Source: Spirochaetota bacterium
Lineage (GTDB): Bacteria > Spirochaetota > UBA4802 > UBA5368
Direction of reading: 5' to 3'
NCBI GenBank assembly: GCA_035477215.1
Contig: DATIKU010000031.1
Coordinates: forward strand, 62,001 to 126,000
DNA: 64,000 nt
Shown here piece by piece: positions 17,546 through 64,000 of this stretch. Each line of letters begins with the position of its first letter. The stretch's first letter is position 1. Below the pieces are notes generated by a model that had not been told where the DNA came from, did no database searches, and was given only the letters and a program-made list of their open reading frames with translations. The position numbers and the translations under genes were made by a program.

Positions 17546-17618
<73 letters not shown>

Positions 17619-17678
17619 AAATGCTGAGGCACTATAAAAAATTGCGTCGATTGGTCAACAATATTTCGCAATTTTCTG

Positions 17679-17751
17679 TGAGTCGCCGGAGAATTGAACT
17701 CCGGACCCACTGCTTAAAAGGCAGTTGCTCTACCGACTGAGCTAGCGACTC
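17679..17751 (-). tRNA. tRNA-Lys (anticodon TTT)
   Basis: The minus strand folds as a 73-base cloverleaf. The acceptor GAGTCGC pairs fully with GCGACTC, with discriminator A. The D-arm is GCTCAGTCGGTAGAGC. The anticodon stem ACTGC/GCAGT has loop CTTTTAA, giving anticodon TTT, and the T-arm is CGGAG-TTCAATT-CTCCG. CCA is not encoded. It lies 60 bases upstream of tRNA-Glu on the same strand, so the two are probably co-transcribed. Confidence 0.96.
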
Positions 17752-48858: not shown

Positions 48859-50055
48859 TTGTTCCGACAATCGTTAGCCTGCCTGTTACTGCTCCTCCCG
48901 GCGGCGCTTTTCGCACGGGACATCAACCTGGACGAACTCTATTTCAGGAAGGATTCGCTCCGCGCACAGCGCCTCGCCATACAGAAGCTTGACGCCTATC
49001 AGAGCGTGCAGGCGCACCTGGTGGATAGCAACGTCATATTCGCGGGATGGCTGTCCGGGCCGGAACTTTTCTATATTCAGGAAGTCCCCGGCCTCGCCGG
49101 CAACATTCTCTTCCAGTACAATGCATACAGGCAGCGACGTGCCGAGCGCACCCGTATTCCGGGTATCATCACTGCGGTGCGCACAAGCCCCGATGGAAGC
49201 TTTCTCGCCCTCAAACGCCTGATACGCAAAGAGGACGTTGTTCCCAGCGGAGAGACCGTCATCTACTCATTCCGAACGGGAAAGACGAGCATACTGCCCA
49301 CGGCGACCGGCTTCCTCGATTTCGACATCCCGTCCGGAGAACCGGCCATTGTCTACGAAGCCCCCGCCGGAATCACCGAGTACCATCCGGATACCGGCAG
49401 GACCAGGCTCCTGATCGAAAAGCGGCGATATGCCGATATCGCCGTGCCGGGCGGCACGACCATGGCGCTGCTTTCCCCGGACCGGCGCAACACGCTCGTC
49501 CTTTGCGGCGGCGGCGGCAGCTACGCCGCGCGGCTCTACGGCGGCCGGACCTCCTTCCCGATACCGGGCATCAGTTCCGCCTCCGAGACCTTCTGGGTGG
49601 ACGCTCATACCATTGCATTCCGCTCGGGAGCACCCGGCAGCTATTCGGTGCGCCTCTACGACGTACGAAATAAAACCGTCGTCACCCTGCTGTCCTCGTC
49701 GCTGAACACCTCGCTCAGCTACTCTCCTCACGCCGCAACGCTTTCGTTTCTAAACGACCAGGTGATCTGTCTTTACGCGGTCCATGACGGAAAGACCCTG
49801 ATCACCGGAATTGAGGGCGAGGACGTGAGTTTGTCAGCTTCCGGAAGCCGTTTTATCTCGCTTTTCAACAGGCGCCTCTTCATCGTCAACATCGAGCTCA
49901 TGAAAAAGAATGAAATCCTGTTGAGGAGGTCATGGGCCTCGCTCCTCGCCTCCTACAGGGAGCTCTCTCTTGACAGGCGATACTGGGAAAACGAATATTC
50001 GCTTGATTATATCCGCCGGAAGATTAGGCTGTACTCGTCTCTTATCGACGGCTAA
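48859..50055 (+). CDS. Secreted propeller-like protein of unknown function
   Basis: The 398-residue product begins at TTG 48859, with a signal peptide (LLLLLPAALFARD). The mature protein has repeated beta patterns such as ITAVRTSPDGSFLALKRL, TMALLSPDRRNTLVLCG, AIVYEAPAG and TIAFRSGAPGSYSVRLYD. This suggests a WD40/TolB-like propeller, but I cannot name a family. The last about 60 residues are helical (LLASYRELSLDRRYW). The gene begins seven bases after the LysM lipoprotein gene, so the two are probably an envelope-related operon. The ribosome site is poor. Confidence 0.62.
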   Translation: MFRQSLACLLLLLPAALFARDINLDELYFRKDSLRAQRLAIQKLDAYQSVQAHLVDSNVIFAGWLSGPELFYIQEVPGLAGNILFQYNAYRQRRAERTRIPGIITAVRTSPDGSFLALKRLIRKEDVVPSGETVIYSFRTGKTSILPTATGFLDFDIPSGEPAIVYEAPAGITEYHPDTGRTRLLIEKRRYADIAVPGGTTMALLSPDRRNTLVLCGGGGSYAARLYGGRTSFPIPGISSASETFWVDAHTIAFRSGAPGSYSVRLYDVRNKTVVTLLSSSLNTSLSYSPHAATLSFLNDQVICLYAVHDGKTLITGIEGEDVSLSASGSRFISLFNRRLFIVNIELMKKNEILLRRSWASLLASYRELSLDRRYWENEYSLDYIRRKIRLYSSLIDG

Positions 50056-50075
50056 TTTGCACTTCCGGAGGGTAT

Positions 50076-51023
50076 ATGGACAGAAACCTCGCACTTGAAG
50101 TGGTGCGAGTCACCGAAGCGGCTGCATTGTACGCAAGCCGACTTATGGGAAGGGGTGACGCTGAACTGGCCAACCGTGCGGCCACCGAGGCCATGGCCAA
50201 GGTGTTTTTATCGGTCTCTATCCGGGGCTGCATCGTAAGCGGCGGCGAATACGGCGACAGCCCCTTCGCCAGGGGAATGATGGTCGGCACCAACTCCGGT
50301 TCCGAGGTCGATATCACCATCGCTCCACTCGACGGAAAAACGACCTGCGCAAACGGCGGCAACAACGCGATCGCCGCGATCGCCATGGGCGAAAAAGACT
50401 CACTTTTCGGCGCTCCCCAGATCTATATGGAAAAGATCGCCGTCGGGCCCGAGGCGAGGGGAGTCGTGGACATCACCCAGCCACCCGAGATAAACATTAA
50501 ACGGGTCGCGCGCGCCAAGGACAAATATATCGAGGACGTGACCGTGTGCGTGCTCGACCGCGACCGCCACCGCGACCTGATCGCGAGCATCAGGCAAACC
50601 GGCGCTCGCATCAAGCTCATCAACGACGGTGATATCTCGGGAGCGGTGGCGACGGCCATGGACGGCAAGTCGATCGACATCCTGATGGGAAGCGGCGGCG
50701 CAATGCAGGGAGTGGCGGCTGCCGCGGCGCTTAAATGCCTCGGAGGAGACATTCAGGCCCGCTTCATCTACCGTAACGAGGACGATAAAAGGATGGTGCT
50801 CGATTCCGGGGAGAAAGACCTTGACAGGATATACGGCATCAGCGATATGGCCAAGGGCGATATCGTCTTCGCGGCGACGGGCATCACCAACGGGGAGCTC
50901 CTGCCGGGCGTCCTTTACGTGTCCGGAGGCGCTCAGACCCATTCCGTCGTAATGCGATCGAAGACGCGCACGGTTCGTTTTATAACCGCCATGCACCAGT
51001 TCGACTACAAGCCCATGTACTGA
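50076..51023 (+). CDS. Class II fructose-1,6-bisphosphatase-like protein (GlpX family)
   Basis: The 315-residue protein aligns with GlpX along its length: [55 protein letters not shown] and [14 protein letters not shown]. However, the metal site differs from the canonical form: IGEGE is here VSGGEY, and DPIEGT is IAPLDGKT. The aspartate is replaced by alanine and the following glutamate by aspartate. The family dephosphorylates fructose-1,6-bisphosphate in gluconeogenesis. Activity here may be altered. A CCGGAGGG ribosome site precedes the start, and transaldolase follows. Confidence 0.78.
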
Positions 51024-51073
51024 GGCCCTTCGCCGAAGCCGGAGGGCCCTTAAAAAATATCGGAGCGCACAAA

Positions 51074-51718
51074 ATGAAATTCTTTATCGACACCGCAGAC
51101 ATCAACGAAATCAGAAAGGCCCGCGAGGTCGGTATACTCGACGGCGTCACCACCAATCCTTCCCTGGTAAGCAAAATCAAGAGGCCCTACATCGAGGTGC
51201 TTGCCGAAATCGCACGCGAGGTCGAGGGACCGGTATCCGCCGAAGTCATCGCCACCGATTCGTCCGGAATCGTAAAAGAGGCCAGGGAGCTGGCGAAGAT
51301 CGGCGGCAACGTTGTCATCAAGGTGCCGCTCATAGCGGAGGGTCTTAAGGCGGTTAAGACGCTGAGCGGCGAGGGAATCAAGACCAACGTCACGCTGTGC
51401 TTCAACTCGCTGCAGGCGCTCATGGCGGCGAAGGCGGGCGCCACCTATATCTCGCCGTTCGTTGGGCGACTCGACGACATATCCTCCGACGGAATGGACG
51501 TTATCGATGAAATCGTTACGATCTACGATAACTACGGTTTCGACACCGAGATCATCGTGGCTTCGGTCCGCAACCCTCTCCATATAAAGCTCGCCGCACT
51601 GATGGGAGCCCATATCGCGACCATCCCCTACCCGGTCTTCGAGAACATCGTCAAACACCCGCTCACCGACATTGGCCTTGCGAAATTTCTCGAGGATTAT
51701 AAAAAGGTGCCGAAATGA
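51074..51718 (+). CDS. Transaldolase / fructose-6-phosphate aldolase-like enzyme
   Basis: The 214-residue protein is the short TalC/MipB type: [28 protein letters not shown], the Schiff-base lysine in [10 protein letters not shown] near 82 and [10 protein letters not shown]. It transfers a dihydroxyacetone unit in the pentose phosphate pathway, or cleaves fructose-6-phosphate. Which of the two cannot be told from sequence alone. It is spaced 50 bases after the GlpX-like gene and probably in the same operon for sugar phosphate metabolism. Confidence 0.92.
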
Positions 51719-51859
51719 TGAATAGCTGACTGCATTTGCACCCCAACCATTATTAAAAATAAAGCCGAAAATAGTATTGCTATTAATACCGCGATGTTTT
51801 CTATTTGTGCATTTCGTTCGCAACATCAGGGTTCGGCCTTTGTATTTCAGGAGAATATT

Positions 51860-53050
51860 GTGAAACTCACTCTGGTCAACAATAAGGGAAATCTCGAATC
51901 ACTGCTGGCGGAAACGGCGAGGGACATCCCGCCATCAGGCATACGCAAGTTTTTCGACATTGTCTACTCGACCCCTGACTGCATATCGCTCGGCGTCGGC
52001 GAACCCGATTTCGTCACCCCCTGGAGAATTTCCGACACAGGCATCTTCGCCATCAAGGACGGGTATACCCATTACACGCCAAACAGGGGCCTGCTCGAGC
52101 TGCGCAACCTCATAACCGCAGCCATCGAAAAGCAGCACGGCGTTTCTTACAGCCCGGAGGACGAGGTCGTCGTTACCATGGGGGTATCCCAGGGCCTCGA
52201 TATCGCGCTTCGCAGCATCGTCAATCCCGGCGACGAGGTCATCATCATCGAGCCCTGCTACGTTTCGTATGAGGCCAATATCCGCCTCATCGGCGGCGTT
52301 GCGGTGGGAATACCGAGCTTCGCCGGCGAGAATTTTAGGATCGACATCAACCGCCTCAAAAAGGCGATTACACCTAAAACGAAGGCCATTCTTCTCAATT
52401 ATCCGTCCAATCCCACCGGTTCGAGCATTGACTCCGACACCATGACGGCCATCGCGCGCATTGCGGTAAAAAACAATCTAATCATCTTCTCGGACGAAAT
52501 CTACTCGTCGATTATCTACGAAAACGAGCACAAATCCATCATCTCTCTTCCGGGAATGAAAGAACGCACCGTTTACCTTAACGGCTTTTCCAAGTCACAC
52601 GCCATGACCGGCTGGCGTCTTGGATATGTAGCGGGGCCGCAATATCTCATCGACGTGCTGCTGAAGATACACCAGTACACCGCGCTCTGCGCCCCCTCCA
52701 TTTCACAATACGCCGCGATCGAGGCCGTGCAGAGCGCCGACCGGGAGGTTGCGCACATGCGCGCCGAGTACACCAAGCGGCGCAATTTCATCGTCAGCCG
52801 GTTCAACGAGGCGGGACTCCCCTGCCTCTCTCCACAGGGGGCGTTCTACGTTTTTCCGGACGTCTCGCCGACCGGTCTGTCCTCCGAGGATTTTGCGATG
52901 AAACTCCTCAATGAGCAGAAAGTGGCCGTGGTGCCCGGCGGAGTTTTCGGCGCATGCGGGACAAATCACATCCGCTGCTCCTTCGCCAATTCCATGGAGA
53001 ACATCAGGACCGCAATGAAAAGGATTGATAAATTCGTTAAAAGCCTGTAG
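51860..53050 (+). CDS. Pyridoxal-phosphate aminotransferase, class I/II
   Basis: The 396-residue enzyme has ISLGVGEPDFVTPW, the cofactor-binding FSKSHAMTGWRLGY with the Schiff-base lysine near 235, and LLNYPSNPTGS. GTG 51860 is preferred: AGGAGA lies seven bases upstream and the result is a normal-length protein; an upstream ATG at 51794 would add 22 unlikely residues. It most resembles aspartate- or aromatic-type aminotransferases, but the amino donor is unclear. It sits ten bases from the NYN nuclease gene. Confidence 0.9.
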   Translation: MKLTLVNNKGNLESLLAETARDIPPSGIRKFFDIVYSTPDCISLGVGEPDFVTPWRISDTGIFAIKDGYTHYTPNRGLLELRNLITAAIEKQHGVSYSPEDEVVVTMGVSQGLDIALRSIVNPGDEVIIIEPCYVSYEANIRLIGGVAVGIPSFAGENFRIDINRLKKAITPKTKAILLNYPSNPTGSSIDSDTMTAIARIAVKNNLIIFSDEIYSSIIYENEHKSIISLPGMKERTVYLNGFSKSHAMTGWRLGYVAGPQYLIDVLLKIHQYTALCAPSISQYAAIEAVQSADREVAHMRAEYTKRRNFIVSRFNEAGLPCLSPQGAFYVFPDVSPTGLSSEDFAMKLLNEQKVAVVPGGVFGACGTNHIRCSFANSMENIRTAMKRIDKFVKSL

Positions 53051-53059
53051 CCGGTTCGT

Positions 53060-53572
53060 ATGGTCTACCTTATCGACGGATTCAACCTCATCTACAAATT
53101 CCCCGACCTCGAAGGCCTGATGTACCAGGGGAGGCTTTCGGATGCGCGGCGCGGCCTCCTCGAAAGACTGAGGGAATACATAAAAATCACCGGCGACAAG
53201 ATACGGATCGTATTCGACGGCCAGAAGGAAAAGCTCCTTGAAATCAAGAACGAGCGGCTCGGCACCATCGACATCTATTATTCACTCGAGTACAGCGCAG
53301 ACTTTCTGATCAAGCAGTTCATCAAGAAGGACCTCAATCCCCGCATGACCACGGTCATCACCTCGGACAAGGACATCGTCCGTTACGTTACGCGCTACCG
53401 CGCACGGGTTAAAACCAGCGAAGAGTTCGCCGAAATGCTCACGAAGGCCATGGAGAAATGGATGGAGGAACAAATCCCCGAGAAAAAGGACGACCCGAGG
53501 CTCGACCAAGAAGAGATCGCGTTCTGGGAGAGGCTGTTCAGGGGCAGGAAGAAACAACCCACGGAATTGTGA
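53060..53572 (+). CDS. NYN-domain (YacP-like) RNA-binding or nuclease protein
   Basis: The 170-residue protein begins VYLIDGFNLIYKFP, with the first catalytic aspartate and asparagine of NYN/YacP domains. Later it has IRIVFDGQKEK, TTVITSDKDIVRYVTRYRAR and a helical C-terminus. YacP-like proteins are PIN-fold endoribonucleases implicated in mRNA or rRNA processing. It is nine bases after the aminotransferase. Confidence 0.82.
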   Translation: MVYLIDGFNLIYKFPDLEGLMYQGRLSDARRGLLERLREYIKITGDKIRIVFDGQKEKLLEIKNERLGTIDIYYSLEYSADFLIKQFIKKDLNPRMTTVITSDKDIVRYVTRYRARVKTSEEFAEMLTKAMEKWMEEQIPEKKDDPRLDQEEIAFWERLFRGRKKQPTEL

Positions 53573-53591
53573 TTGGTGGAGCGATGCACGC

Positions 53592-54365
53592 TCAGCGCCG
53601 AACCCCCGCCGCCAGGACGGCCGCGCCTATCGCTCCGTTTTCCTGTGCGCTCGTGGAAACCTCTATCGGGCTCTCAAGTTTTTTCTCGAGGGCGTCCACT
53701 ACTCCGCGGTTCTTGGCCACGCCGCCCGTCATCATAATCGGCGGCACCACGCCCACCCGCTTCGCCATGGCGACCACCCTGGCCGCAATGGACTCGTGTA
53801 TTCCCGCGATGATGTTGTCACGGCTTTCGCCCTTGGATATAAGCGATATGACCTCAGATTCGGCGAACACCGTGCAAAGACTGCTTATCTTGGACGGGTT
53901 TTGGGACCTGAGAGAAAGAGCGCCGAATTCATCCAGGTCCACCTCCAGGGCGCGTGCCATTACCTCAAGAAACCTTCCGGTTCCCGCGGCGCATTTGTCG
54001 TTCATGGCGAAATCCTTGACCCTGCCGGTATCATCGACCGCAATGGTCTTGCTGTCCTGTCCCCCGATATCGATTATGGAGCGGATGTGGGGATTGAGAT
54101 AATGCGCTCCCGCGGCGTGACAGGTAATTTCGGTGATCGCCGAATCCGCGAAACTCACGCTGTTTCGACCGTACCCGGTGGCGACGATCCTTTCGACCTC
54201 CGAACGCGCGATCCCGAGCTCCGAAAGTATCTCTTCGAGCACCCTGTTGCCGGCATTCTCCGCCTGGTAGCCGGTAAAAATGACCCGCGTACCGAGTATG
54301 CGGTTGTCTTTCAGTACGGCCGCTTTCGTGGTGATTGATCCTATGTCCATTCCAATCGTCAGCAT
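53592..54365 (-). CDS. BadF/HgdC-type ATPase (2-hydroxyacyl-CoA dehydratase activator)
   Basis: The 257-residue ASKHA ATPase has IGMDIGSITTKAAVL, DIGGQDSKTIAV and NDKCAAGTGRFLEV. The cysteine near 125 and a second in SLCTVFAE correspond to the ligands of the bridging 4Fe-4S cluster. These activators pass one ATP-driven low-potential electron to a 2-hydroxyacyl-CoA dehydratase or benzoyl-CoA reductase. No such dehydratase subunit is next to it, so it is an orphan here. ATG 54365 has GAGG eight bases upstream; a GTG at 54374 is the other option. Confidence 0.88.
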   Translation of the reverse strand: MLTIGMDIGSITTKAAVLKDNRILGTRVIFTGYQAENAGNRVLEEILSELGIARSEVERIVATGYGRNSVSFADSAITEITCHAAGAHYLNPHIRSIIDIGGQDSKTIAVDDTGRVKDFAMNDKCAAGTGRFLEVMARALEVDLDEFGALSLRSQNPSKISSLCTVFAESEVISLISKGESRDNIIAGIHESIAARVVAMAKRVGVVPPIMMTGGVAKNRGVVDALEKKLESPIEVSTSAQENGAIGAAVLAAGVRR

Positions 54366-54382
54366 CACCTGCACCTCTGTCC

Positions 54383-55270
54383 TCAGTCTTTCAGTTGCGT
54401 GTTAAAAAACGACAACATGTCGGCCATAACGCCGCTCCACAGCTTCCACTCGTGTGATTTATTCCGCACTTCCCTATACTCGACGACATACCCGCCCCCG
54501 CTTCGCTTCTGAAGATGATTGAGGCGGATGCAGAGCAGGCGCGACTGCTCTATCGGCACGGTGGTGTCCCTGTCACCGTGCGCCAGGAACACAGGTGTTT
54601 TCTCCAGGTTGAACGCGAGTTCCATAATGTTGTCGTCGCGCTGCCAGCGTTCTTTGAAATCGGCGAAACTGCCGTAAACCGACGCAAGCGCCTGGTTCCG
54701 GGTGAGCACCGAGACGTCGTAATATCCCGAGAGTCCTGCCGCCGCACCGAACATCTCCGGATTCCCCGACGCGACGAGCAGCGCCCCGCGGGCTCCCGTT
54801 CCGATACCCGCTACGCCCAGGACCGCGCGCTCCCGGGCGATGCCGTACTCTTCCCGTAAAAACGGCACCAGCACCGTTACAATCCACTTCCCGCCGGGGA
54901 TGGCGTCCCATTTGGTCTGGGTTTCGGGATAGTAGTTCGTCTCGTACTGAGTCGCGCCCATAGACGGGCACACCAGGACTATGGAATATTCATCGGCGTA
55001 ACGCCGAACGTCCGTATTCGCGCTCCAGTCGCGCGATGATCCCCTGTGATTGTGCAGCAGGACGATCGTGCGGCCCCCGCGCGCGGCGTACATGGCGGGA
55101 AAGTAGGCCCGCACACCGGCGGTCCTGTTTTCACCGTCAACCATGAATGGTATTTTAATGTCGATCCATTGTCCGGTTGGGGCCTTACGCGTACTTCGGA
55201 CAATCCCCCCCGAACACGAGAGGCAGAGAAGCAAAAGGGCGCCAATCGCCATCCTCAGAAACGATTTCAT
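54383..55270 (-). CDS. Esterase-like lipoprotein with altered nucleophile elbow
   Basis: The 295-residue product has a lipobox CLSC after a signal peptide. It has an alpha/beta-hydrolase fold like PHB depolymerase/feruloyl esterase proteins: TIVLLHNHRGSSRDW, AVLGVAGIGTGARGALL, LAHGDRDTTVP (aspartate) and NKSHEWKLW (histidine). The nucleophile position of G-x-S-x-G reads GIGTG, so serine is replaced by glycine. Catalysis is doubtful unless another residue serves. It may be a binding or scaffold lipoprotein. Its start lies 97 bases from radC. Confidence 0.68.
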   Translation of the reverse strand: MKSFLRMAIGALLLLCLSCSGGIVRSTRKAPTGQWIDIKIPFMVDGENRTAGVRAYFPAMYAARGGRTIVLLHNHRGSSRDWSANTDVRRYADEYSIVLVCPSMGATQYETNYYPETQTKWDAIPGGKWIVTVLVPFLREEYGIARERAVLGVAGIGTGARGALLVASGNPEMFGAAAGLSGYYDVSVLTRNQALASVYGSFADFKERWQRDDNIMELAFNLEKTPVFLAHGDRDTTVPIEQSRLLCIRLNHLQKRSGGGYVVEYREVRNKSHEWKLWSGVMADMLSFFNTQLKD

Positions 55271-55366
55271 GGTCTTGCATCCGGAGCTATAATATTCACC
55301 TCAACGAAGTGGAAATATACCAGTCAAGCGCTTCTCCGTCAACAGCATTATTGAACCATGCAACGA

Positions 55367-56044
55367 TTAGAGGTATCCTGCCTCCTTCATGCTGAGGTAG
55401 GAGGACTGTCCGATGATAACATGATCGAGAAGCTCGATCCCGATAATCACACCGGCCTCTTTTATCCTCCTGGTTGCGGTGATATCCTCGCGCGACGGCA
55501 CCAGCACCCCGGAGGGATGGTTGTGTGCGACGATAATCGACGCGCCCGCCTCACGGATCGCTTCCCTGAATATCTCCCTGGGGTGGACGAGCGCTTCCGA
55601 AACGGTGCCCACCGAGACCGTCGCTTTTTTCAATATGCTGTTCTTGTTGTTTAGTATGAATACTCTGAATTCCTCGCGCTTCAGTGCGGCCATCTCCGGC
55701 TGCAACAGCTTCCACACCCTTTCGGGCGAGTCGATGACCGGGGACGAGTTCTGCGCCGACAGAAGCCTCCTTCCCAGCTCGAATGCCGCGTGGATCCGTA
55801 TCGCTTTCCTCATGCCCACGCCATGCTTCTGCGCCATCTCCCTGAGGCCGGAGCCATGGATCCCCTTCAATCCCCCGAACTGTTTCACCATGCACGAGGC
55901 GAGCTCGATCACGTCCACCGTACGGGTACCCGTGCCGAGGAGGATGGCGAGCAACTCCATGTCGGAGAGATCTTGCACGCTTCCCCCTGCGATGCATTTC
56001 TGTATGGGAAGGTGGCTTTGCATGTCTTCAATTGTCCCGTTCAT
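55367..56044 (-). CDS. radC: RadC-family JAB1/MPN-domain protein
   Basis: The 225-residue protein has a UPF0758/RadC N-terminal helix-hairpin-helix part. The JAB metal motif H-x-H-x7-S-x2-D is in AHNHPSGVLVPSRED near 175-190, preceded by the glutamate in KREEFRVFILNN. The family name comes from a misassigned E. coli repair gene, and the biochemical role is unsettled. All metal ligands are present. Confidence 0.88.
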   Translation of the reverse strand: MNGTIEDMQSHLPIQKCIAGGSVQDLSDMELLAILLGTGTRTVDVIELASCMVKQFGGLKGIHGSGLREMAQKHGVGMRKAIRIHAAFELGRRLLSAQNSSPVIDSPERVWKLLQPEMAALKREEFRVFILNNKNSILKKATVSVGTVSEALVHPREIFREAIREAGASIIVAHNHPSGVLVPSREDITATRRIKEAGVIIGIELLDHVIIGQSSYLSMKEAGYL

Positions 56045-56293
56045 ATAAAGAAAACGTTTTGACGGACGTCACGGGTAACACTTTTTCGGGAAAGTGCGAT
56101 TTTTTCCGCCCCATATCTTCAAATCCGGGGCTTTAATATCCCCGGGGTCGCCAGGGCATACTTTTGACGCTACCGTAACGGCGGCAAATTGTTATTTACT
56201 AATATATGGATGAGTTTTAGACTGCCACTTCGTTGAATCGAAGCCGGCCCCCGGACCGGGGGCCGGGCAATACTGGAGACCGTGGAGAAGGAG
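56045..56293 (+). other. Intergenic region with a strong GC hairpin before the STAS gene
   Basis: The gap of about 250 bases contains CCGGCCCCCGG-A-CCGGGGGCCGG (56244-56266), a perfect 11-bp inverted repeat which, allowing a loop, leaves a very stable stem. It lies about 27 bases before the STAS ATG, so it would be in the 5' leader. No T-run follows. I see no other feature in the gap. Confidence 0.5.
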
Positions 56294-56623
56294 ATGCTTG
56301 AAATAAAAGATATTGGTGACGGCCTTTTCGTGGCCAAGGTAACCATGAACGAAGTTCTCACGCTCGACGTTCCCGAACTCAAGGAGAAACTTCAGCAAGA
56401 GATTCTTAACAGGGGGATTAAAAAGCTGGTGCTGGATCTTTCCGCCGTGAAACTCATTACCAGCTCGGGGATCGGCATTTTCCTCAATATCAATCAGAAC
56501 CTGAAAAACTGCCTCAGGCTGGCGGCGCCCCAATCCGAAGTTGAAAAGGTCCTCGAGCTTACCAAGGTTTCGTCCGTCATTAAGATATTCAGCACCGTCG
56601 ACGCCGCGGTAAAAAGTTATTAA
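56294..56623 (+). CDS. STAS-domain anti-sigma factor antagonist
   Basis: The 109-residue protein is one STAS domain: LEIKDIGDGLFVAKV at the start, LVLDLSAVKLITSSGIGIF in the middle (with the conserved phosphorylatable serine of the SSG segment near 58), and VIKIFSTVDAAVKSY at the end. Such proteins bind or release an anti-sigma or switch kinase depending on serine phosphorylation. ATG 56294 follows GGAG by six bases; a GTG at 56282 could also be used. No kinase is adjacent, although the RsbW-type ATPase at 34896-36098 is a possible partner. Confidence 0.88.
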   Translation: MLEIKDIGDGLFVAKVTMNEVLTLDVPELKEKLQQEILNRGIKKLVLDLSAVKLITSSGIGIFLNINQNLKNCLRLAAPQSEVEKVLELTKVSSVIKIFSTVDAAVKSY

Positions 56624-56638
56624 ATTTTCGATTATTTT

Positions 56639-56826
56639 ATTGACCCCGCTTGCCGGGTTATGTACCATTAGGACAAGAAGAGGACGTGGGATTTAACATC
56701 GCAGTGTTTTCTTCAATGGCACCTCGGGTGTCCAAATTTCGGTACACATATGTACCTTTTGATCTATATTGATCAAACCAGGGAAACGGGGAACAATCCT
56801 TAAGGGTTGATCCCCTTTCTTTTTTT
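56639..56826 (+). ncRNA. Candidate structured small RNA with promoter and terminator
   Basis: TTGACC (56639-56644) and TACCAT (56662-56667), 17 bases apart, could start a transcript near 56674. Its expected RNA has four consecutive hairpins: GGCACC-TCG-GGTGTC (56718-56732), GGTACA-CATA-TGTACC (56741-56756), TTTGATC-TATATT-GATCAAA (56758-56777) and the terminator stem GGGGAACAATCC-TTAA-GGGTTGATCCCC (56788-56815) with a T-rich tail to 56826. The 5' GGACA could also pair with TGTCC at 56729-56733. No protein start fits it. It may be a 3' UTR-derived or independent regulatory RNA. The terminator alone is well supported (about 0.85). Confidence 0.4.
56788..56826 (+). terminator. Rho-independent terminator after the STAS gene / candidate small RNA
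   Basis: GGGGAACAATCC and GGGTTGATCCCC form a 12-position stem with one A-A mismatch and one G-T pair, loop TTAA. It is followed by TTTCTTTTTTT. It ends plus-strand transcription from the STAS gene or from the small RNA candidate. Confidence 0.85.
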
Positions 56827-57121
56827 AATAAACCCTGTTTCGCTCTCGCCGCATCAATTAAAAAAAGGATTAAGCCCCTTCTCGGTTTCGAATTCCGGGA
56901 TTTTTTCATCAATCGCGACAGGGCCTGGGTCGGCGACATTGAACATCCGCGGCCGCGGAATTGGAAACCGGCATTGCGGGTCGCATCTTGCGCTCGGACC
57001 ATCCGTCGATTACCCAGCCGGATAGCTGTTCCCGCATATCGGGCCGGGAGCCGATTTAAAGAAACTCGTTTCCGCTTTGCAGGTTTATTCACCGGTTTCA
57101 GTATCCGGAATACCTCAGGCA
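56827..57121. other. Region between the terminator and the 609-residue gene
   Basis: I see no convincing gene. A minus-strand frame (56658-57122, 154 codons) starts with TAATG coupling to the end of the next gene. It has mixed third-base usage, a basic composition and no recognisable family, and it crosses the terminator and small RNA candidate, so I do not call it. Confidence 0.4.
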
Positions 57122-58951
57122 TTAAAAGAGATCGTCAAGTTCCTTTAGGACACCTTCGTCCGATGATTTCGTTTTATCTTCACCGGCGGAATCGCGCTCA
57201 TTTTCCAAAGATTCACTCTGCGCCGCAAGAGCGGCCATTTTCTGCATCTCCTCTTCGTTTATCTCTTCTTCGCCGAAAAGGTCCCCATCGGAGCTCAGTC
57301 GATACCTGAAGGCCGAAGCGTAGCAGTACGCCGCCAGTATCGCCTCGTAGACCTTGCGGCCGTTCATTTTTTTGCTTCCTTCGATGGACGATTCAAATCC
57401 GAGAACATCCTGCGGGTTGTCCACGATGCGCTGCCCGCCGTTCATGTCCGCGATCAAAGTGCTCAGTTCTATTATCACCTTTTCCATAAAGTCACGCACC
57501 GTCATCCGCACGTTTTTCCCGACTCCCGTCTTTTTCTTGTCCATCCCGGCGAGCCTGTTGGAATAGTCGATATACTGGGCGTTGGATGTGGGCTTCTCGT
57601 TTCGGGCCTTTTCGTAGCTCTCGATAATATCCGCATAATCCTTGAACACGCTCATGCACCGCCGCAGGTCGTTATACATATCCGACAGCTTGATCCGGTA
57701 ATCCACCTTCCCCTGTTGTGTGAACTGGACGTTGTACTTGATCTTGTTAGTCGTCAGAATAAAAGAATACTCTTCGTCGAATTCCCTGAAAAGGATATGG
57801 GCCAGCAGTATCTTGTCGTTGTCCCTCACGTATTTAAAGACGCCCGACTTGTCATATACCGAGCGCAGTTTTTTCAGGTCGAGCGCATTCATGATGGCCA
57901 GACCCTTGCGCACCTCCTCGGGCAACTGGTCCTGCTCGCCGGCCTCCTCTTGCGGTTCTCCGGATTCATCCTCCTCCGGCCGGGCATCCGGTCTTTTCGC
58001 CCTTCCGCGCCTGTTCGGTACGTCCGTATCGGCGATCTGCAGTATTCGCGCTATCACCGGGTCTTTCATCAGATACAGCTCTCCGAGGTAATTGCAGAAG
58101 AGCCAGTACAGCACCGTATAAAGCCTGTTGAACACGACGGCCACGTCGTTCTTGATCTTTTTGCGCTTCATTGCGTAGAGCGAGTTTTTGCCCTTTTCAA
58201 GCTTCATCTGCATTCCGATGGCGCGGTCGAACGCAAGCAGGATGAGTTCTTTGTATGGATATAGCACATATAGTTTTTTAAAAAGTCTGGTGAGCGGCTC
58301 CCGTATCTCGGCGGCCTTTTGACCGATATGCGGGAAGTTTATGTGGTGCTCGACGATCTGGTTGATCATACCGCGATCGAAAACCCCCGACGACATTTCG
58401 ATGAGCTCGTAATACAGCGGGTCAAGCCGGTCGAGCTCGTCGACTATGGCGACACCGGTTTTGTGGCTTTGTTTAAAAATATCGAGGTACACAAGCTGAA
58501 GCTCGAGAAGTGCCGATTTCATCTCCGTATTGAAGCGCTCGAGAAATTTTTTCGTCAGGAATTCGCCGTAAAAGTCGCAGACCCCCATGGAGTAGAGTCG
58601 TATCCTGATCTGCCAGCGGTTGATTAATCGTATCAGCGCATCGAAGATGCCCCTGCCGGGGGCGGGGATGTATTCGGCGGCCGTTTGCCCTTCCGCGGCG
58701 CGATTGGTGCCGCCCACGTGCCGGGAGGGACGCTTCTCGACTTCCTTGAGTTTCTGCGCATGACCGTCGATCTTGCTCCTGAACTGCTTCTGTTTATCGC
58801 GATCGAAATCCGCGAGCGCCCGCTGCTTTTGGTTTCTGGCGACCTTACCGCCGGCCTCGACGAACTTGTTGAAAAGCTGCTTCTTCTCGCTTTCGTTCAA
58901 CTGTTCGGCGCCGATATTTTTCCTGGTCTTGTCGATTCGTTCAGTGCCCAT
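57122..58951 (-). CDS. Large cytoplasmic protein of unknown function, probably spirochaete-specific
   Basis: I do not recognise this 609-residue protein. It starts with a charged, helical N-terminus (SEKKQLFNKFVEAGGKV) and a low-complexity lysine-rich stretch. A helix-rich body follows (FYGEFLTKKFLERFNTE, ELILLAFDRAIGMQMKLE), and an acidic tail ends it (EEEINEEEMQKM, EGVLKELDDLF). There is no signal peptide or convincing membrane span. ATG 58951 follows GGGA; an upstream in-frame ATG at 59074 would add a non-family-like stretch. A TTGACA box on the minus strand at 59050-59055 may belong to its promoter. Confidence 0.6.
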   Translation of the reverse strand: MGTERIDKTRKNIGAEQLNESEKKQLFNKFVEAGGKVARNQKQRALADFDRDKQKQFRSKIDGHAQKLKEVEKRPSRHVGGTNRAAEGQTAAEYIPAPGRGIFDALIRLINRWQIRIRLYSMGVCDFYGEFLTKKFLERFNTEMKSALLELQLVYLDIFKQSHKTGVAIVDELDRLDPLYYELIEMSSGVFDRGMINQIVEHHINFPHIGQKAAEIREPLTRLFKKLYVLYPYKELILLAFDRAIGMQMKLEKGKNSLYAMKRKKIKNDVAVVFNRLYTVLYWLFCNYLGELYLMKDPVIARILQIADTDVPNRRGRAKRPDARPEEDESGEPQEEAGEQDQLPEEVRKGLAIMNALDLKKLRSVYDKSGVFKYVRDNDKILLAHILFREFDEEYSFILTTNKIKYNVQFTQQGKVDYRIKLSDMYNDLRRCMSVFKDYADIIESYEKARNEKPTSNAQYIDYSNRLAGMDKKKTGVGKNVRMTVRDFMEKVIIELSTLIADMNGGQRIVDNPQDVLGFESSIEGSKKMNGRKVYEAILAAYCYASAFRYRLSSDGDLFGEEEINEEEMQKMAALAAQSESLENERDSAGEDKTKSSDEGVLKELDDLF

Positions 58952-59315
58952 TTCCCGCAGCCCGCACCATCGGGGCCCCTCCGACGAGTTGAATCTCCCG
59001 CCATAACAAACGCGCTTCCCCGTTCGATGTTCGATTAATAATCCCCGCCTGTCAATTACTAATGTACCGAACATACGGTATTTCGAACATCACGAATTCC
59101 CTGTTTTCCCGAGAACCAGGATCGGAGGGACCGCGTTGCACATCGCCACCCGGTAATATCACGGCATAAATCAGTTGAATTATTATCCCGTGCCCGTTAG
59201 GCTCCACCTGGCGCCGGCGGTCCGGCCGTTGATCCAAACGGCGTATAGGTGCGGGGAGCAAAGCCATCGACGATCCCCTTTAGCGCCGGGGCACAATAGA
59301 CGGAGGCATGGCCAT
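58952..59315. other. Divergent region between the 609-residue gene and the YjbQ gene
   Basis: It contains the TTGACA box (minus, 59050-59055) noted with the gene to the left and three copies of CGAACAT: on the minus strand at 59027-59033, and on the plus strand at 59068-59074 and 59084-59090, the last two 16 bases apart. A small dyad, TACCG-AACATA-CGGTA, covers 59065-59080. I see no coding frame here. Confidence 0.4.
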
Positions 59316-59708
59316 ATGATACACAGCTTCACCGTCAATTCTTCCTCCCGCGAGGAACTCATTGACATTACCGGTGAAATTCGGCGCCTCGTTGCATCCA
59401 GCGGAATTATCGAAGGTGTGTGCTTCATATACACTCCTCACACCACGGCCGGTGTAACCATCAACGAAAACGCCGACCCCACCGTACGAAAGGACATCAT
59501 AAAAGGACTGGGCACGCTTAACCTCGAGCGCGTACCGTTTTCACATCTCGAGGGCAATTCACCGGCGCACATCAAATCATCGCTTGTCGGCTGCTCCCTC
59601 TTCGTTTTTGTCGAGGAGGGGAGGCCAGTGCTCGGAACGTGGCAGGGGATATTCTTTTGCGAGTTTGACGGGCCAAGGACCAGGACGGTGATGGTGAGAA
59701 TCGGTTGA
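59316..59708 (+). CDS. YjbQ family protein (secondary thiamine-phosphate synthase type)
   Basis: The 130-residue protein has the UPF0047/YjbQ signature: FIYTPHTTAGVTINENADPTV, then PFSHLEGNSPAHIKSSLVG and GTWQGIFFCEFDGPRTR, with the conserved histidines and the acidic residue that bind metal. The family includes proteins with thiamine-phosphate synthase activity in vitro; the physiological role is uncertain. ATG 59316 is nine bases after GGAGG and gives the normal length. Confidence 0.88.
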   Translation: MIHSFTVNSSSREELIDITGEIRRLVASSGIIEGVCFIYTPHTTAGVTINENADPTVRKDIIKGLGTLNLERVPFSHLEGNSPAHIKSSLVGCSLFVFVEEGRPVLGTWQGIFFCEFDGPRTRTVMVRIG

Positions 59709-59821
59709 GGGCCCCGGAATTGTCAAAAAACGCTTGCCACTGCCCGGCTATCGGTCAGAGATGGATCGCAGGGTCCGTGCTCTGGGCGCGGACCATAATC
59801 AACCATAAGGCAGGTTTTACA

Positions 59822-60676
59822 ATGGACTATTTCAAAGGAACAAGCGACTACGTGCTCTCTCCCGAGCTCAAGGATAACGTAAACGTCTCGATCGCGCTGG
59901 GCAGGCCGCTTTTGGTAAAAGGAGAACCGGGCACCGGCAAGACTCTCCTCGCGCATTCGATCGCGGAGAGCGTCGGGAAACCTCTTATCGTATGGAACAT
60001 CAAATCCACGACCAAGGCCCGCGATGGCCTGTACATCTACGATACGGTCCAGCGCCTCAACGATGCGCGTTTCGGCGACAGGGACATCAATGACATCAAG
60101 CAGTATATAAAGCTCGGCAAGCTCGGAGAGTCCTTCGCCGCCGAAGAGCAGATGGTGCTTTTGATCGACGAGATCGACAAGGCGGACATCGAGTTCCCCA
60201 ACGACCTGCTCAACGAGCTCGACGAGATGAGCTTTTACATCCCGGAGACCGGCAAGAACATCAAAGCCATACACCGGCCCATCGTCATCATCACGTCCAA
60301 CAGCGAGAAGGAGCTCCCCGACCCGTTTCTCCGGCGCTGCGTGTTCCACTACATCGAGTTTCCCTCCGAGTCACTCATGGAGGAGATCGTGTACGTGCAC
60401 TTCCCCGATATCGAGAAGAAGCTGTTGCGTGAATGCCTCAAGAAATTCTACTGGATCCGGCAGTTCGACATGCTGCGCAAGAAGCCGTCCACCAGCGAAC
60501 TCATCGACTGGATACAGTCGCTCATTGTCGGCGGAATATCACCCTCGAATGTCGAGAAGGAGCTCCCATTCCTCGGCACGCTGCTGAAGAAAAAAGAAGA
60601 CACCGATCTCGTCGCCCAGTCATCGCCCGGGCACCATGGGTTCAACACCAGCATACGGACGCGAAATGTTTATTAA
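59822..60676 (+). CDS. MoxR-type AAA ATPase
   Basis: The 284-residue ATPase has Walker A GEPGTGKTLLAHS near 35, Walker B MVLLIDEIDKAD near 115, and sensor ITSNSEKELPDPFLRRC. MoxR ATPases act as chaperones that load metal cofactors or assemble complexes, usually with a VWA partner. Here the next gene, overlapping by 11 bases, is that VWA protein. ATG 59822 has an AAGGCAGG site upstream; an in-frame start at 59705 is unlikely. Confidence 0.9.
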   Translation: MDYFKGTSDYVLSPELKDNVNVSIALGRPLLVKGEPGTGKTLLAHSIAESVGKPLIVWNIKSTTKARDGLYIYDTVQRLNDARFGDRDINDIKQYIKLGKLGESFAAEEQMVLLIDEIDKADIEFPNDLLNELDEMSFYIPETGKNIKAIHRPIVIITSNSEKELPDPFLRRCVFHYIEFPSESLMEEIVYVHFPDIEKKLLRECLKKFYWIRQFDMLRKKPSTSELIDWIQSLIVGGISPSNVEKELPFLGTLLKKKEDTDLVAQSSPGHHGFNTSIRTRNVY

Positions 60677-61853
60677 CTTTTTTTTCAATCTCAAGGCTCA
60701 TGGCGTGCCGGTATCACTCCACGAGTGGATCACGCTTCACCACGCGCTCGCGCGAAACCTCAACGACTGCAGCCTTACCCGTTTTTATCACGTTGCGCGG
60801 TCCATACTGGTTAAGAACGAAATCTTCTTCGACCGGTACGACCTCGCCTTTCTCGACACGTTCAAGGACATCGAGACCACCGACGAGATGCTCGAAAAGA
60901 TACTCGAGGGCCTGAAGAAGGTCAAGGAGCTCCGACTGACCGAAGAGGAAAAGCGACTTATCGACGAGCTCGATCTCGACGAAGTGCTGCGGAACTTCGA
61001 GGAGCAGCTCCGTCAGGGACATTTTAAGAACCATGTCGGCGGCAACCGCGCCATCGGCACCGGAGGGCGCTCCACGCAGGGAGCGTGGGGCTACAACCCG
61101 GCCGGTGTCCGTATCGGGCAGGGAGAATCGCGCCACAAGCGTGCCGTCCAGATCGCCGAAAAACGCAGCTTCCGTAACTACTCGAGCTCGATCACGCTCG
61201 ACACCCGGCAGATGAGGGTCGCGCTCGCCCACCTGAGGGCGCTATTGCCGCTTGGACCGGAGGAAAAACTCAACCTCGAGGCTACGATCGAAGTCACCAG
61301 TAAAAACGCCGGCGACATAGAGCTCATCTGGGAAAACAAGGAGAAGAAGGCCGCCAGGGTAATACTCATGATGGACGTGGGCGGGTCCATGACGCCCTAC
61401 GCGCGCATGGTCGAACGTCTCTTTTCCGCGGCATCCTCCCAGATCAGCCGCTTCAAGCATTTCTATTTTCACAACTGCGTGTACCAGGACCTGTGGACCG
61501 ACATCGAGCGCCGCGATTCTATCAATACGGCCGAGTTTTTGAAAAGCGAGGACTCGGACTATAAGCTTATAATGGTCGGCGACGCCGAGATGGCGCCGTC
61601 CGAGCTTACCTGGGCGAACGGCGCCGTCGATTACTGGTATCACAACGACGTTCCCGGACTCGTCTGGCTTCAGCGTATTCGCGAAAAATTCCACGATTCT
61701 ATCTGGCTTACCCCCGTTCAGAAGCGGGCATGGGGATACGTGCAGACCACAAGAATGATCGCCGACATCTTCCCCATGTTCGAGCTGACGTTGGACGGTC
61801 TCGATGAGGGTGTCAAATTCCTGATGCAGGGAAAAGGAAGGATACATGCGTAA
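60666..61853 (+). CDS. VWA/CoxE-like protein
   Basis: The 395-residue protein opens MFINFFFNLKAHGVPVSLHEW, which matches CoxE-like proteins. A VWA domain near 235 contains the MIDAS-type MMDVGGSMTPYARMVERLF, with aspartate and serine spaced D-x-G-x-S instead of D-x-S-x-S. The C-terminal WLTPVQKRAWGYVQTTRMI completes the family pattern. It works with the MoxR ATPase encoded just before it. No clear substrate complex is nearby; the following OppF-type ATPase overlaps it by eight bases. Confidence 0.85.
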   Translation: MFINFFFNLKAHGVPVSLHEWITLHHALARNLNDCSLTRFYHVARSILVKNEIFFDRYDLAFLDTFKDIETTDEMLEKILEGLKKVKELRLTEEEKRLIDELDLDEVLRNFEEQLRQGHFKNHVGGNRAIGTGGRSTQGAWGYNPAGVRIGQGESRHKRAVQIAEKRSFRNYSSSITLDTRQMRVALAHLRALLPLGPEEKLNLEATIEVTSKNAGDIELIWENKEKKAARVILMMDVGGSMTPYARMVERLFSAASSQISRFKHFYFHNCVYQDLWTDIERRDSINTAEFLKSEDSDYKLIMVGDAEMAPSELTWANGAVDYWYHNDVPGLVWLQRIREKFHDSIWLTPVQKRAWGYVQTTRMIADIFPMFELTLDGLDEGVKFLMQGKGRIHA

Positions 61854-62829
61854 AGGCGGACGCGTCTCCGACACACCCCTCATGCTCGAGGTGCGGGGAC
61901 TCACCAAACATTTTTCGGTTCGCAGGAGAGGGCTTTTCCAGAAGCATGGCGTGCTGCGGGCGGTTGACGATGTGAGTTTTTCCATCGCCGAGGGGCAGTG
62001 CCTCGGCCTGGTCGGGGAGAGCGGAAGCGGAAAAACCACCGCGGCGCGATCCATCCTTCGCCTCATCGAGCCCGATTCCGGGGTCATCAACGTAGGCGGA
62101 GTGAACGTCTCCGGCCTCGAACGGGGCGATCTCCGGCGCTATCGAAAAAACATGCAGATCGTTTTTCAGGACCCCTACGGTTCGCTCAACCCACGGATGA
62201 CGGTCGAGAAGATTTTGGGTGAGCCCCTTAAAATCCACACCTCCCTTGGGAAAAAAGCGATCCGGGAGAGGATTGTCGACCTGCTCGATCTCGTTGGGCT
62301 CTCGGCGGACCTGGCGGACCGCCATCCCCACGAATTCAGCGGTGGACAGCGTCAGCGAATCGGGATAGCGCGGGCCATCGCGCTCAATCCCCGGTTCATC
62401 ATTCTCGACGAACCCGTTTCCGCGCTCGACGTTTCAATCCAGGCCCAGATACTCAACCTTCTCGCCGACCTGCGCGACAGGCTGAACCTCACGTATCTGT
62501 TCGTTGCGCACGACCTGTCGGTCGTCGAGCACATCAGCGATATGATTGCGGTCATGTACCTGGGAAAAATAGTCGAACTAAACCCCAGGGCCGGTCTGTA
62601 TAGAAAACCGCTTCACCCTTACACTCAAAGTCTTATACGGTCGATTCCGGATAAAAAGCCCGTCAAGCACGGATTCACCGTTTTGCGGGGGGAGATACCC
62701 TCTCCCGAAAATCCCCCGACCGGATGCCCCTTCCACCCGCGCTGTCCGAACCTCATGGAGGTCTGCCGACATGAATACCCTGCGATCCGCCGGATCGGCG
62801 GCGCAACGGTCGCCTGCCACCTTTACTGA
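61846..62829 (+). CDS. Oligopeptide/dipeptide ABC transporter ATP-binding protein, OppF type
   Basis: The 327-residue ATPase has Walker A GESGSGKTTAARS near 60, signature FSGGQRQRIGIARA near 165, Walker B FIILDEPVSALD near 185, and the family C-terminus GCPFHPRCPNLMEVC. In peptide importers it pairs with OppD and two permeases; none is adjacent. It is translationally coupled to the VWA gene, so it may simply ride in that operon, or its partners lie elsewhere. Confidence 0.9.
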   Translation: MRKGGRVSDTPLMLEVRGLTKHFSVRRRGLFQKHGVLRAVDDVSFSIAEGQCLGLVGESGSGKTTAARSILRLIEPDSGVINVGGVNVSGLERGDLRRYRKNMQIVFQDPYGSLNPRMTVEKILGEPLKIHTSLGKKAIRERIVDLLDLVGLSADLADRHPHEFSGGQRQRIGIARAIALNPRFIILDEPVSALDVSIQAQILNLLADLRDRLNLTYLFVAHDLSVVEHISDMIAVMYLGKIVELNPRAGLYRKPLHPYTQSLIRSIPDKKPVKHGFTVLRGEIPSPENPPTGCPFHPRCPNLMEVCRHEYPAIRRIGGATVACHLY

Positions 62830-62842
62830 GATAGTTAAGGTG

Positions 62843-63766
62843 ATGAAACTTGCGGCAGGGGCTGTTCGTCCGGAACGAGCTCTACCACGCGGCCGCATCA
62901 TTCCCATCGCAGCGATCCTTTTAATTTTTATTTTCCTTTTACTCTCGCATGGCACGGCATTCCCCGCGGAGGACCGTCTGCTCCAGCTGATGGAACAGGC
63001 CGGGCGGGAAACGGCCGAACAGGTGGCGATGGAGGAGATTTATTCCAGAAATAATATCCTTTTCTGTACCGGCACGAGCGAGGCGGCATCCGCAAACAAC
63101 ACGGCCGCCGAACACATGCTGAAAGGCGACTATTCCAGGGCCGCCGAAATCCTCGAAAGCGCACTCGTCCGTTCAGCCCTCTTCCTGCCGTTCAGGTACA
63201 ACCTCGGGATCTGCCGCATCCATCTCGAAGAGCTTCCCGTCGCCCTTGTCCACCTTAACAAGGCCCTTCAACTGCTTCCCGAATATTCAAAGACCTGGAT
63301 TCAAATGGGGCATATCCACGAGCGGATGGGCCGCGACGATCTCGCCATGCAGTACTATAAATCGGCCCTTGGCCGCAACCCCCGCGAATTGGAAGCCTAC
63401 ACCCTTACGGGTGACATTTATTTCAAGCGCAACCAGCTCGAGATGGCCGCCAGGCACTACGACCGTTCGCTCAGGGAGAACCCGCGCTATCCGAACGGCC
63501 TGCTGGGACGCGCCAAGATCCATTTCGAACGAGGTGAGTATCTCAAGGCAATCATTCAGATAAAGTCAATCGACACGTCGGGGGATTACGACAAGGCCCT
63601 GCATTATTATTACGCCGAATCGGCATACCGGCTGAGGGATTACCAGACGGCATTTGACCAGTACGGCGAACTCTTGAAGCACAGGGGAGACCGGTTTTTT
63701 CTCACCCATTCGTCATTCATCATCCACCATAAAATGGAACTTTCCCGGCGATTCATCGAGCGCTGA
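62843..63766 (+). CDS. TPR-repeat protein, membrane-anchored or secreted
   Basis: The 307-residue protein has a long hydrophobic segment near 20-40 (IIPIAAILLIFIFLLLSHG) that could be a signal peptide or anchor. The following TPR units include PFRYNLGICRIHLEELPVAL, TWIQMGHIHERMGRDDLAM, AYTLTGDIYFKRNQLEMAA and PNGLLGRAKIHFERGEYLKA. TPR arrays mediate protein binding. ATG 62843 has a close AAGGTG; an in-frame ATG at 62771 overlaps the ATPase gene and would add 24 residues. Confidence 0.75.
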   Translation: MKLAAGAVRPERALPRGRIIPIAAILLIFIFLLLSHGTAFPAEDRLLQLMEQAGRETAEQVAMEEIYSRNNILFCTGTSEAASANNTAAEHMLKGDYSRAAEILESALVRSALFLPFRYNLGICRIHLEELPVALVHLNKALQLLPEYSKTWIQMGHIHERMGRDDLAMQYYKSALGRNPRELEAYTLTGDIYFKRNQLEMAARHYDRSLRENPRYPNGLLGRAKIHFERGEYLKAIIQIKSIDTSGDYDKALHYYYAESAYRLRDYQTAFDQYGELLKHRGDRFFLTHSSFIIHHKMELSRRFIER

Positions 63767-63778
63767 AACGGGCCGCGC

Positions 63779-64000
63779 CTACAGTGAAATCGACACCTGT
63801 GCGTAAGCGGTGTCGTCCATTCTCCCTGTGCCGGGAAACGCATTTTTGTTATAATTGTGCATAAAACCGGTTTTCAGGGCAATAAGTTTCGTCACCGACA
63901 CCGTTATAAACGAATCCATCACAAAACAATACTCGGCCCAGTCCGTCATCCTCGGAATATAAAAAGCCGCACACAATACTACGACCGGCTGGGCCGGCGT
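63779..64000 (-). CDS. DUF481-like outer membrane protein, C-terminal end (partial)
   Basis: The frame is open to the window edge. It ends FITVSVTKLIALKTGFMHNY, then TGRMDDTAYAQVSISL before TAG. The pattern of alternating strands, a transition at LIALK and the terminal aromatic-like strand fits the last strands of DUF481/YdiY-type beta-barrels. Only about 73 residues are visible, so the call is tentative. Confidence 0.55.
   Translation of the reverse strand, partial: TPAQPVVVLCAAFYIPRMTDWAEYCFVMDSFITVSVTKLIALKTGFMHNYNKNAFPGTGRMDDTAYAQVSISL

Follow-up and report, generated by a model that had tools for sequence, protein, structure and literature searches.

A candidate small RNA family of one Spirochaetota order, usually encoded behind a STAS-domain gene

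Introduction

Does the stretch of DNA that follows a STAS-domain gene in a Spirochaetota genome encode a small regulatory RNA (sRNA) in its own right, and, if so, how would such an RNA act? The question is raised by positions 56639-56826 of the window, that is, the whole 64,000-nt stretch of DNA that was analysed, where an earlier note made from the sequence alone had described promoter-like boxes and a series of inverted repeats, and had proposed either an undescribed regulatory RNA or a product of a long STAS 3' UTR. The reading favoured here, with a probability of roughly 0.6, is an independently transcribed sRNA gene of about 152 nt, whose product would most likely act in trans through the loop of its first hairpin and dock on Hfq by its terminator.

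The locus and its elements

The window comes from the genome of an uncultured spirochaete (3.57 Mb, 62 contigs), which holds one copy of the RNA gene; the parts of this gene are collected in Table 1. The promoter-like boxes are present where the earlier note had placed them, its start at 56639 being one base ahead of the -35 box; a spacer of 17 nt separates them, the -35 box sits 16 nt past the STAS stop codon, and the predicted RNA start falls at about 56674-56676. The terminator that was said to close four consecutive inverted repeats is likewise there, but the hairpins total five, namely H1-H4 and the terminator as the fifth, and the nearest large downstream frame (57122-59074) does lie on the strand opposite to the RNA, as had been claimed for the next gene. 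The loop motif of H1 reads UUUAACAUC in the window and UUUACAACU in the genus g8 and at locus L072, and is UNACAAC-like in several other members. The upstream STAS gene scores 48.6 bits against TIGR00377, under the cut-off of 53.45.

Table 1. Coordinates of the STAS gene, the predicted promoter and the candidate small RNA in the window.
Feature	Position	Strand	Remarks
STAS-domain gene, single-domain, anti-sigma-factor-antagonist-like	56282-56623	+	PF01740, E 1.2e-13
-35 box, TTGACC	56640-56645	+	Hexamer scan; TTGAC in 19/19 members; genus identity 90%
-10 box, TACCAT	56663-56668	+	Hexamer scan; TATTAT or TATATT in most relatives; genus identity 72%
Small RNA, ~152 nt	56675-56826	+	Predicted 5' end; fold z, covariance models R1/R2/R3, covariation
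Hairpin H1	56677-56714	+	Highest conservation within the genus, 96% identity
ACA of the H1 loop motif	56696-56698	+	Invariant in 18/18 aligned members; candidate recognition loop
Hairpin H2, GGCACC-UCG-GGUGUC	56718-56732	+	4/6 pairs with two-sided change
Hairpin H3, GGUACA-CAUA-UGUACC	56741-56756	+	3/6 pairs with two-sided change, otherwise sequence nearly fixed
Hairpin H4, UUGAUC...GAUCAA	56759-56776	+	Form genus-specific; 4/6 pairs broken in genome G006
Intrinsic terminator, hairpin H5 and U tail	56780-56826	+	H5 56780-56822, T run to 56826

Conservation and distribution of the family

Within the genus, mean pairwise identities over the five sequences of alignment A1 (gaps counted as differences) amount to 87% for the RNA, 96% for H1, 87-91% for H2-H5 and 90% for the -35 box; they are 72% for the -10 box, 51% for the promoter spacer, 37% for the stretch between the -10 box and the RNA, 61% for that between STAS and the -35 box, 54% for the H2-H3 linker and 49% downstream of the terminator, and the last 42 nt of STAS stand at 86%. 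The -35 box and the RNA stems are conserved above drifting flanks, and therefore selection acts on them.

When 59 related genomes were searched with the DNA, each of the four remaining genomes of the genus gave a strong match, and G006, which belongs to the same family as the window, gave a weak one (E 1.6e-5); the other listed matches were many, short and near chance level. The covariance search in relatives, by which the earlier note had suggested checking its candidate, found the stems conserved. Specifically, model R1, built from six sequences and run over 46 genomes of the order, gave matches at E <= 0.1 in 19 genomes, 17 of which hold members on reading and two of which (G013, G044) do not; eleven members lay outside the model, each at E 4.9e-5 or better, and six of these eleven adjoin STAS, although STAS played no part in the search. 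Model R2, built from 17 sequences and applied to 392 phylum genomes, contributed the member of G023 (E 4.9e-8). At E <= 0.01 it matched 27 phylum genomes, comprising 18 with members and nine with terminator-only or unrelated matches (eight genomes outside the order and G039), and no member outside the window's order was found on reading these matches. Model R3 was built from 18 sequences; nine of the 28 rows of its low-scoring list were read (L160, which is the G023 member, L136, L161-L166 and L177), and all except the G023 member are terminator hairpins or unrelated sequence.

One further member, L037 of genome G008, was recognised by eye downstream of STAS. It is regarded as weak, and kept outside the covariation counts, because R2 gives it E = 0.052, the MAFFT alignment places its H1 and terminator wrongly, and the fold of its H1-H3 is shuffle-like; the R3 search listed nothing for G008. 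Locus L044 reached E 0.089 but showed no promoter, and was excluded.

Taken together, members were found in 19 of 46 genomes of the order, the covariance models giving 18 of them and inspection by eye the weak one, and all 19 carry the TTGAC box, the ACA in H1 and, by eye, H2, H3 and the terminator. They are spread over the families f1 (8/8), f2 (1/1, the weak one), f4 (2/4), f6 (6/6) and f7 (2/20), with 0/4 in f3 and 0/3 in f5. In the other 27 genomes these covariance models found no member, which is not the same as true absence, since the searches score a part of each genome's candidates (7 per genome with R2, 67 with R1, 104 with R3); the scores of sequences included in a model are circular. 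As judged from these comparisons, selection has maintained a folded RNA in four or more, probably five, families of a single Spirochaetota order. The relatives keep the RNA while the surrounding DNA changes, so that it very likely functions as a regulatory RNA.

Folding and covariation

The stretch 56639-56826 folds at -67.2 kcal/mol, compared with -46.8 +/- 3.9 kcal/mol for 200 dinucleotide shuffles, none of which is as stable (z = -5.18). H1-H3 of the window without the terminator reach z = -3.6 (100 shuffles), and for the full-length fold the z values of the 19 members range from -2.7 to -8.8 (100 shuffles per member); in L072, L075, L130 and L037, H1-H3 alone differ from the shuffles by no more than 1.2 sd. 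Each of the 19 members has the ACA within nt 20-23 of its RNA. The first two bases of the motif are predicted unpaired (probability >= 0.77) in 13 members and paired in four (L064, L065, L072, L075), with L067 and L037 mostly paired; the third base is predicted paired in most of the genus and of g8. H3 has the form GGUAC/GUACC in 16 of the 18 aligned members, with GGUGC/GCACC and GGGGU/ACCCC in the other two, and the CC/GG core of H2 is invariant in all 18.

Compensatory changes in the stems, which the earlier note had named as the support to look for, were found above both shuffled and shifted controls. The six-sequence alignment has ten pairs with two-sided change against 1.9 when shuffled (0/500 as high) and 2-4 when the structure is slid. 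In alignment A6, a MAFFT alignment of 17 members made from sequence only, without structure, there are 25 such pairs against 14.4 +/- 1.8 and the covariation score is 0.361 against 0.192, with none of 500 shuffles as high on either measure, bearing in mind that related sequences can exceed shuffles without any structure; sliding the structure by 1-3 columns leaves 10-18 pairs, a comparison in which a structure drawn from the same sequences tends to beat its slid versions. H5 contributes 12 of its 17 pairs in A6. Moreover, H2 and H3 alone, over 18 members, show seven pairs with two-sided change against 2.9 when shuffled (0/500) and 2-5 when slid. The count of pair types is weaker, being matched by 1 (six sequences), 16 (A6) and 54 (H2 and H3) of 500 shuffles. 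The pairing of H1 holds in 67.6% of the cells of A6 only, because the alignment is out of register at the base of the stem in several rows, and on alignment A5 RNAalifold retained only H3 and H5. The strongest single evidence is the recurrent two-sided change in H2, with CG, GC and UA at its outer pair.

These results bear on the trivial explanation of the locus as chance hairpins or a decaying mobile repeat. Such an origin would fit the window scan taken alone, in which promoter-like matches (3 found, 1.7 expected) and terminator-like matches (3 found, 2.4 expected) are near the chance rate; it is hardly credible in view of the covariation, of a conservation centred on the promoter boxes and the RNA, and of the single copy in the window's genome. 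The promoter and terminator calls are credible because they are conserved in relatives, and not by scan significance alone.

A predicted promoter and terminator of its own, and the link to STAS

A TTGAC box is located upstream of the RNA in 19/19 members, and in 18 of them (the exception being L068) the best hexamer pair, with a spacer of 16-19 nt, ends 6-7 nt before the RNA start, which in relatives was set by us from the alignment. The RNA gene is thus predicted to have a sigma-70-type promoter of its own, and it ends in an intrinsic terminator, formed by H5 and the T run, which covaries.

In 13 of the 19 members the RNA is directly behind STAS, on the same strand and with no intervening gene seen, and in the window the scan listed no other terminator between the two. 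Both observations would suit an RNA whose hairpins and terminator mainly end or stabilise the STAS mRNA, the sRNA being released from it or arising as a by-product. This 3' UTR origin is nonetheless unlikely, given that every member has the TTGAC box and that the sequence is conserved far above the needs of a terminator. Moreover, RNA and STAS are on different contigs in five of the 19 members, all five g8 genomes, and a split assembly is ruled out as the cause because the RNA of g8 has over 14 kb of its contig on each side; in G023, STAS and the RNA are separated by an open frame on the opposite strand (208 aa). Because of the contig separation in g8 and the intervening frame in G023, the RNA is considered an independent gene and more than a STAS 3' UTR, and in g8 its own promoter is the only driver that can be expected; in the other genomes, transcripts reading through from STAS may also contribute. 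As to the two proposals of the earlier note, the undescribed small RNA is well supported, while the UTR product is not needed and misfits some members.

Gene neighbourhood

A composite gene order, pieced together across loci since single genomes lack some of these genes, comprises RadC (other strand), STAS, the RNA, an opposite-strand metallo-beta-lactamase-fold gene, DUF167, an MnmC-like gene, a 650-aa protein (other strand) and YjbQ. In g8 the RNA precedes DUF167, which is the next same-strand gene found there and at L034, L037, L042 and L056, as would be expected if the RNA were a cis-acting leader, either riboswitch or attenuator, for the DUF167/MnmC genes that follow. However, an opposite-strand metallo-hydrolase gene intervenes between the RNA and DUF167 at L032, L033, L035, L036, L058 and L065, tblastn of window positions 50001-64000 found neither the metallo-beta-lactamase-fold gene nor the DUF167 of L032/L033, and no alternative pairing was noticed on unsystematic inspection. 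A leader function was rejected, and is very unlikely, as the downstream gene is absent, convergent or variable among members; a constant cis target is absent for the same reason.

Some observations on the surroundings may be added. At L034 and L056, of the hydrolase and DUF167, DUF167 alone was found. The hydrolase and DUF167 look recently lost in the window's species, since neither has a match in positions 50001-64000 of the window and yet a short stretch at about 56860-56900 aligns with the segment of L003 (G004) that holds the end of the hydrolase gene. An ORF of 154 aa antisense to the RNA (56658-57122, minus strand), for which no Pfam match was found, is probably a by-product of the lost hydrolase region. 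The frame at 57122-59074 (minus strand) codes for the 650-aa protein, for which no Pfam or NCBIfam match was found and which is conserved beside the locus in seven relatives (L032-L037, L056) with 41-87% identity. Lastly, in three relatives in which the RNA is not behind STAS, a SAM riboswitch (RF00162, ~92 bits) is located downstream of STAS instead (L038 4472-4574, L040 4626-4729, L041 4583-4686).

Comparison with known classes of RNA

No family of Rfam 15 matches the element at the gathering threshold in the window or at nine member loci; the best sub-threshold scores, 19.5 bits for the window stretch, 27.5 for L065 and 30.6 for L070, are far below the thresholds, and these matches are scattered, several of them falling on the terminator. 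Elsewhere in the window, two tRNA genes (17546-17751, minus strand) are the only Rfam matches at threshold. The earlier note had set the element apart from 4.5S RNA, and indeed no Rfam model of the bacterial SRP RNA matches it, whether at the gathering threshold or with E allowed to reach 10. Nor is a reading frame conserved across members among frames of at least 12 codons ending inside the RNA: four of the 19 members have no such frame, and the genus shares a GTG frame over the near-identical H1 that diverges after it. A coding gene was rejected on these grounds, and a CsrA sponge since repeated GGA loops were not seen by eye on the alignments.

6S RNA has the shape of a long rod with a central bubble. 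The RNA resembles it in length and as a structured RNA gene, but lacks the long rod and central bubble and has no RF00013 match at the locus, and the 6S RNA of the genome is encoded elsewhere (L143 1501-1687, corresponding to 24900-25086 of contig C19 of G000; 80.3 bits). Hfq-dependent trans-acting sRNAs of Gram-negative bacteria are 100-200 nt long and have a sigma-70-type promoter, stem-loops and an intrinsic terminator that ends in a U tail. The RNA shares with them the length, the sigma-70-type boxes, the stem-loops, the terminator with its U tail and an Hfq gene in the genome, and differs in that no sequence relation to any Rfam sRNA was found. The sRNAs derived from 3' UTRs form a general class located directly behind a protein gene, the terminator of which they may share. 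The RNA is similar in being usually directly behind a protein gene, and it may share the terminator; unlike them, it has a conserved promoter box, and STAS is unlinked in 5/19 members and separated by a frame in one.

Among published elements, a riboswitch candidate of Streptomyces, as described in PMC11109978, is also associated with a STAS-domain gene, but is placed upstream of STAS and takes in its Shine-Dalgarno, whereas the RNA lies downstream with its own promoter and terminator. Small RNAs are described in Leptospira, of the same phylum (PMC5243855, PMC13224635), the former paper reporting an Hfq-like protein; a term search of the two main texts returned no mention of a STAS gene or domain. 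The Leptospira motifs ahead of ilvB and sucC are presented as upstream elements (PMC8632094), unlike the RNA. No paper describing the RNA was recognised in a partial survey of the literature, so its absence from print is unproven. The RNA represents a real small RNA family, which is of a known kind and apparently uncatalogued.

Putative mode of action

In the favoured trans-acting reading, a housekeeping sigma-type promoter behind STAS, the boxes of which are observed, would start the RNA, and the intrinsic terminator with its U tail would end it. The ACA-bearing loop of H1 would then pair as a seed with mRNAs in trans, the terminator and U tail would dock on Hfq, and H2 and H3 would serve as a stabilising or protein-binding scaffold. 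The genome of the window (G000) possesses an Hfq gene (PF17209, 103.5 bits, cut-off 27).

Targets were sought as exact 10- and 11-mer complements of the H1 loop in ten genomes, with the reversed pattern as control. In g8, 15 sites were found, five of which are the RNA itself; the ten non-self sites (five of them in open frames > 150 aa) against nine in the control indicate no enrichment of exact complements. The genus has 12 sites, four being the RNA itself, and the eight non-self sites against four in the control represent little excess; one complement pair, at the end of a coding frame, is common to G000 and G004. Two of the sites are placed ahead of a start codon, namely L192 of G003 (by 29 nt) and L147 of G028 (by 72 nt), and the loop-to-leader duplex is strong only in G003 and G028 themselves, where 10 and 0 of 200 mononucleotide shuffles are as good. 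In the other ten orthologues of these two genes the duplexes are in the shuffle range (37 to 186 of 200), and both genes were rejected as conserved targets because the pairing is not kept. One of the ten non-self g8 sites, an exact 11-nt complement of the g8 loop, is located at L149 (G016) 1501-1511, 36 nt inside a 140-aa frame that resembles ssb by eye; the exact site was not seen in other g8 genomes.

That no conserved mRNA complement was found by the exact-complement searches and the orthologue follow-up is what would be anticipated if the RNA, in the manner of 6S- or CsrB-type RNAs, bound a protein or acted as a scaffold through the ACA loop of H1 and the GGUAC-GUACC hairpin instead of pairing with mRNAs. 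H3 is indeed fixed in sequence beyond its shape (16/18 aligned members), and the ACA motif is invariant while the surrounding stem changes; this fixation of H3 and ACA leaves room for a protein-binding role, which the RNA may have. Conversely, the RNA is not 6S, which the genome encodes elsewhere, a CsrB-like repeated GGA loop motif was not seen by eye on the alignments, and there is no candidate protein, so that this alternative is possible but doubtful. More speculative still, and improbable, is an order-level Spirochaetota RNA that would bind a protein via the ACA loop and the GGUAC hairpin, possibly in a STAS/anti-sigma partner-switch pathway, and would riboregulate a sigma-factor cascade.

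Implications

All 27 named records returned by a protein search with the STAS gene are MAGs without a cultured-species name; hence, transcriptomes of cultured spirochaetes would probably miss the family. Few spirochaete sRNAs are catalogued, six distinct annotated ones being given in the table of a 2022 review (PMC9029176), and the present RNA adds a well-supported family with searchable models and an invariant loop motif. The neighbourhood of STAS, DUF167 and MnmC-like genes hints at where the targets of the RNA could be sought.
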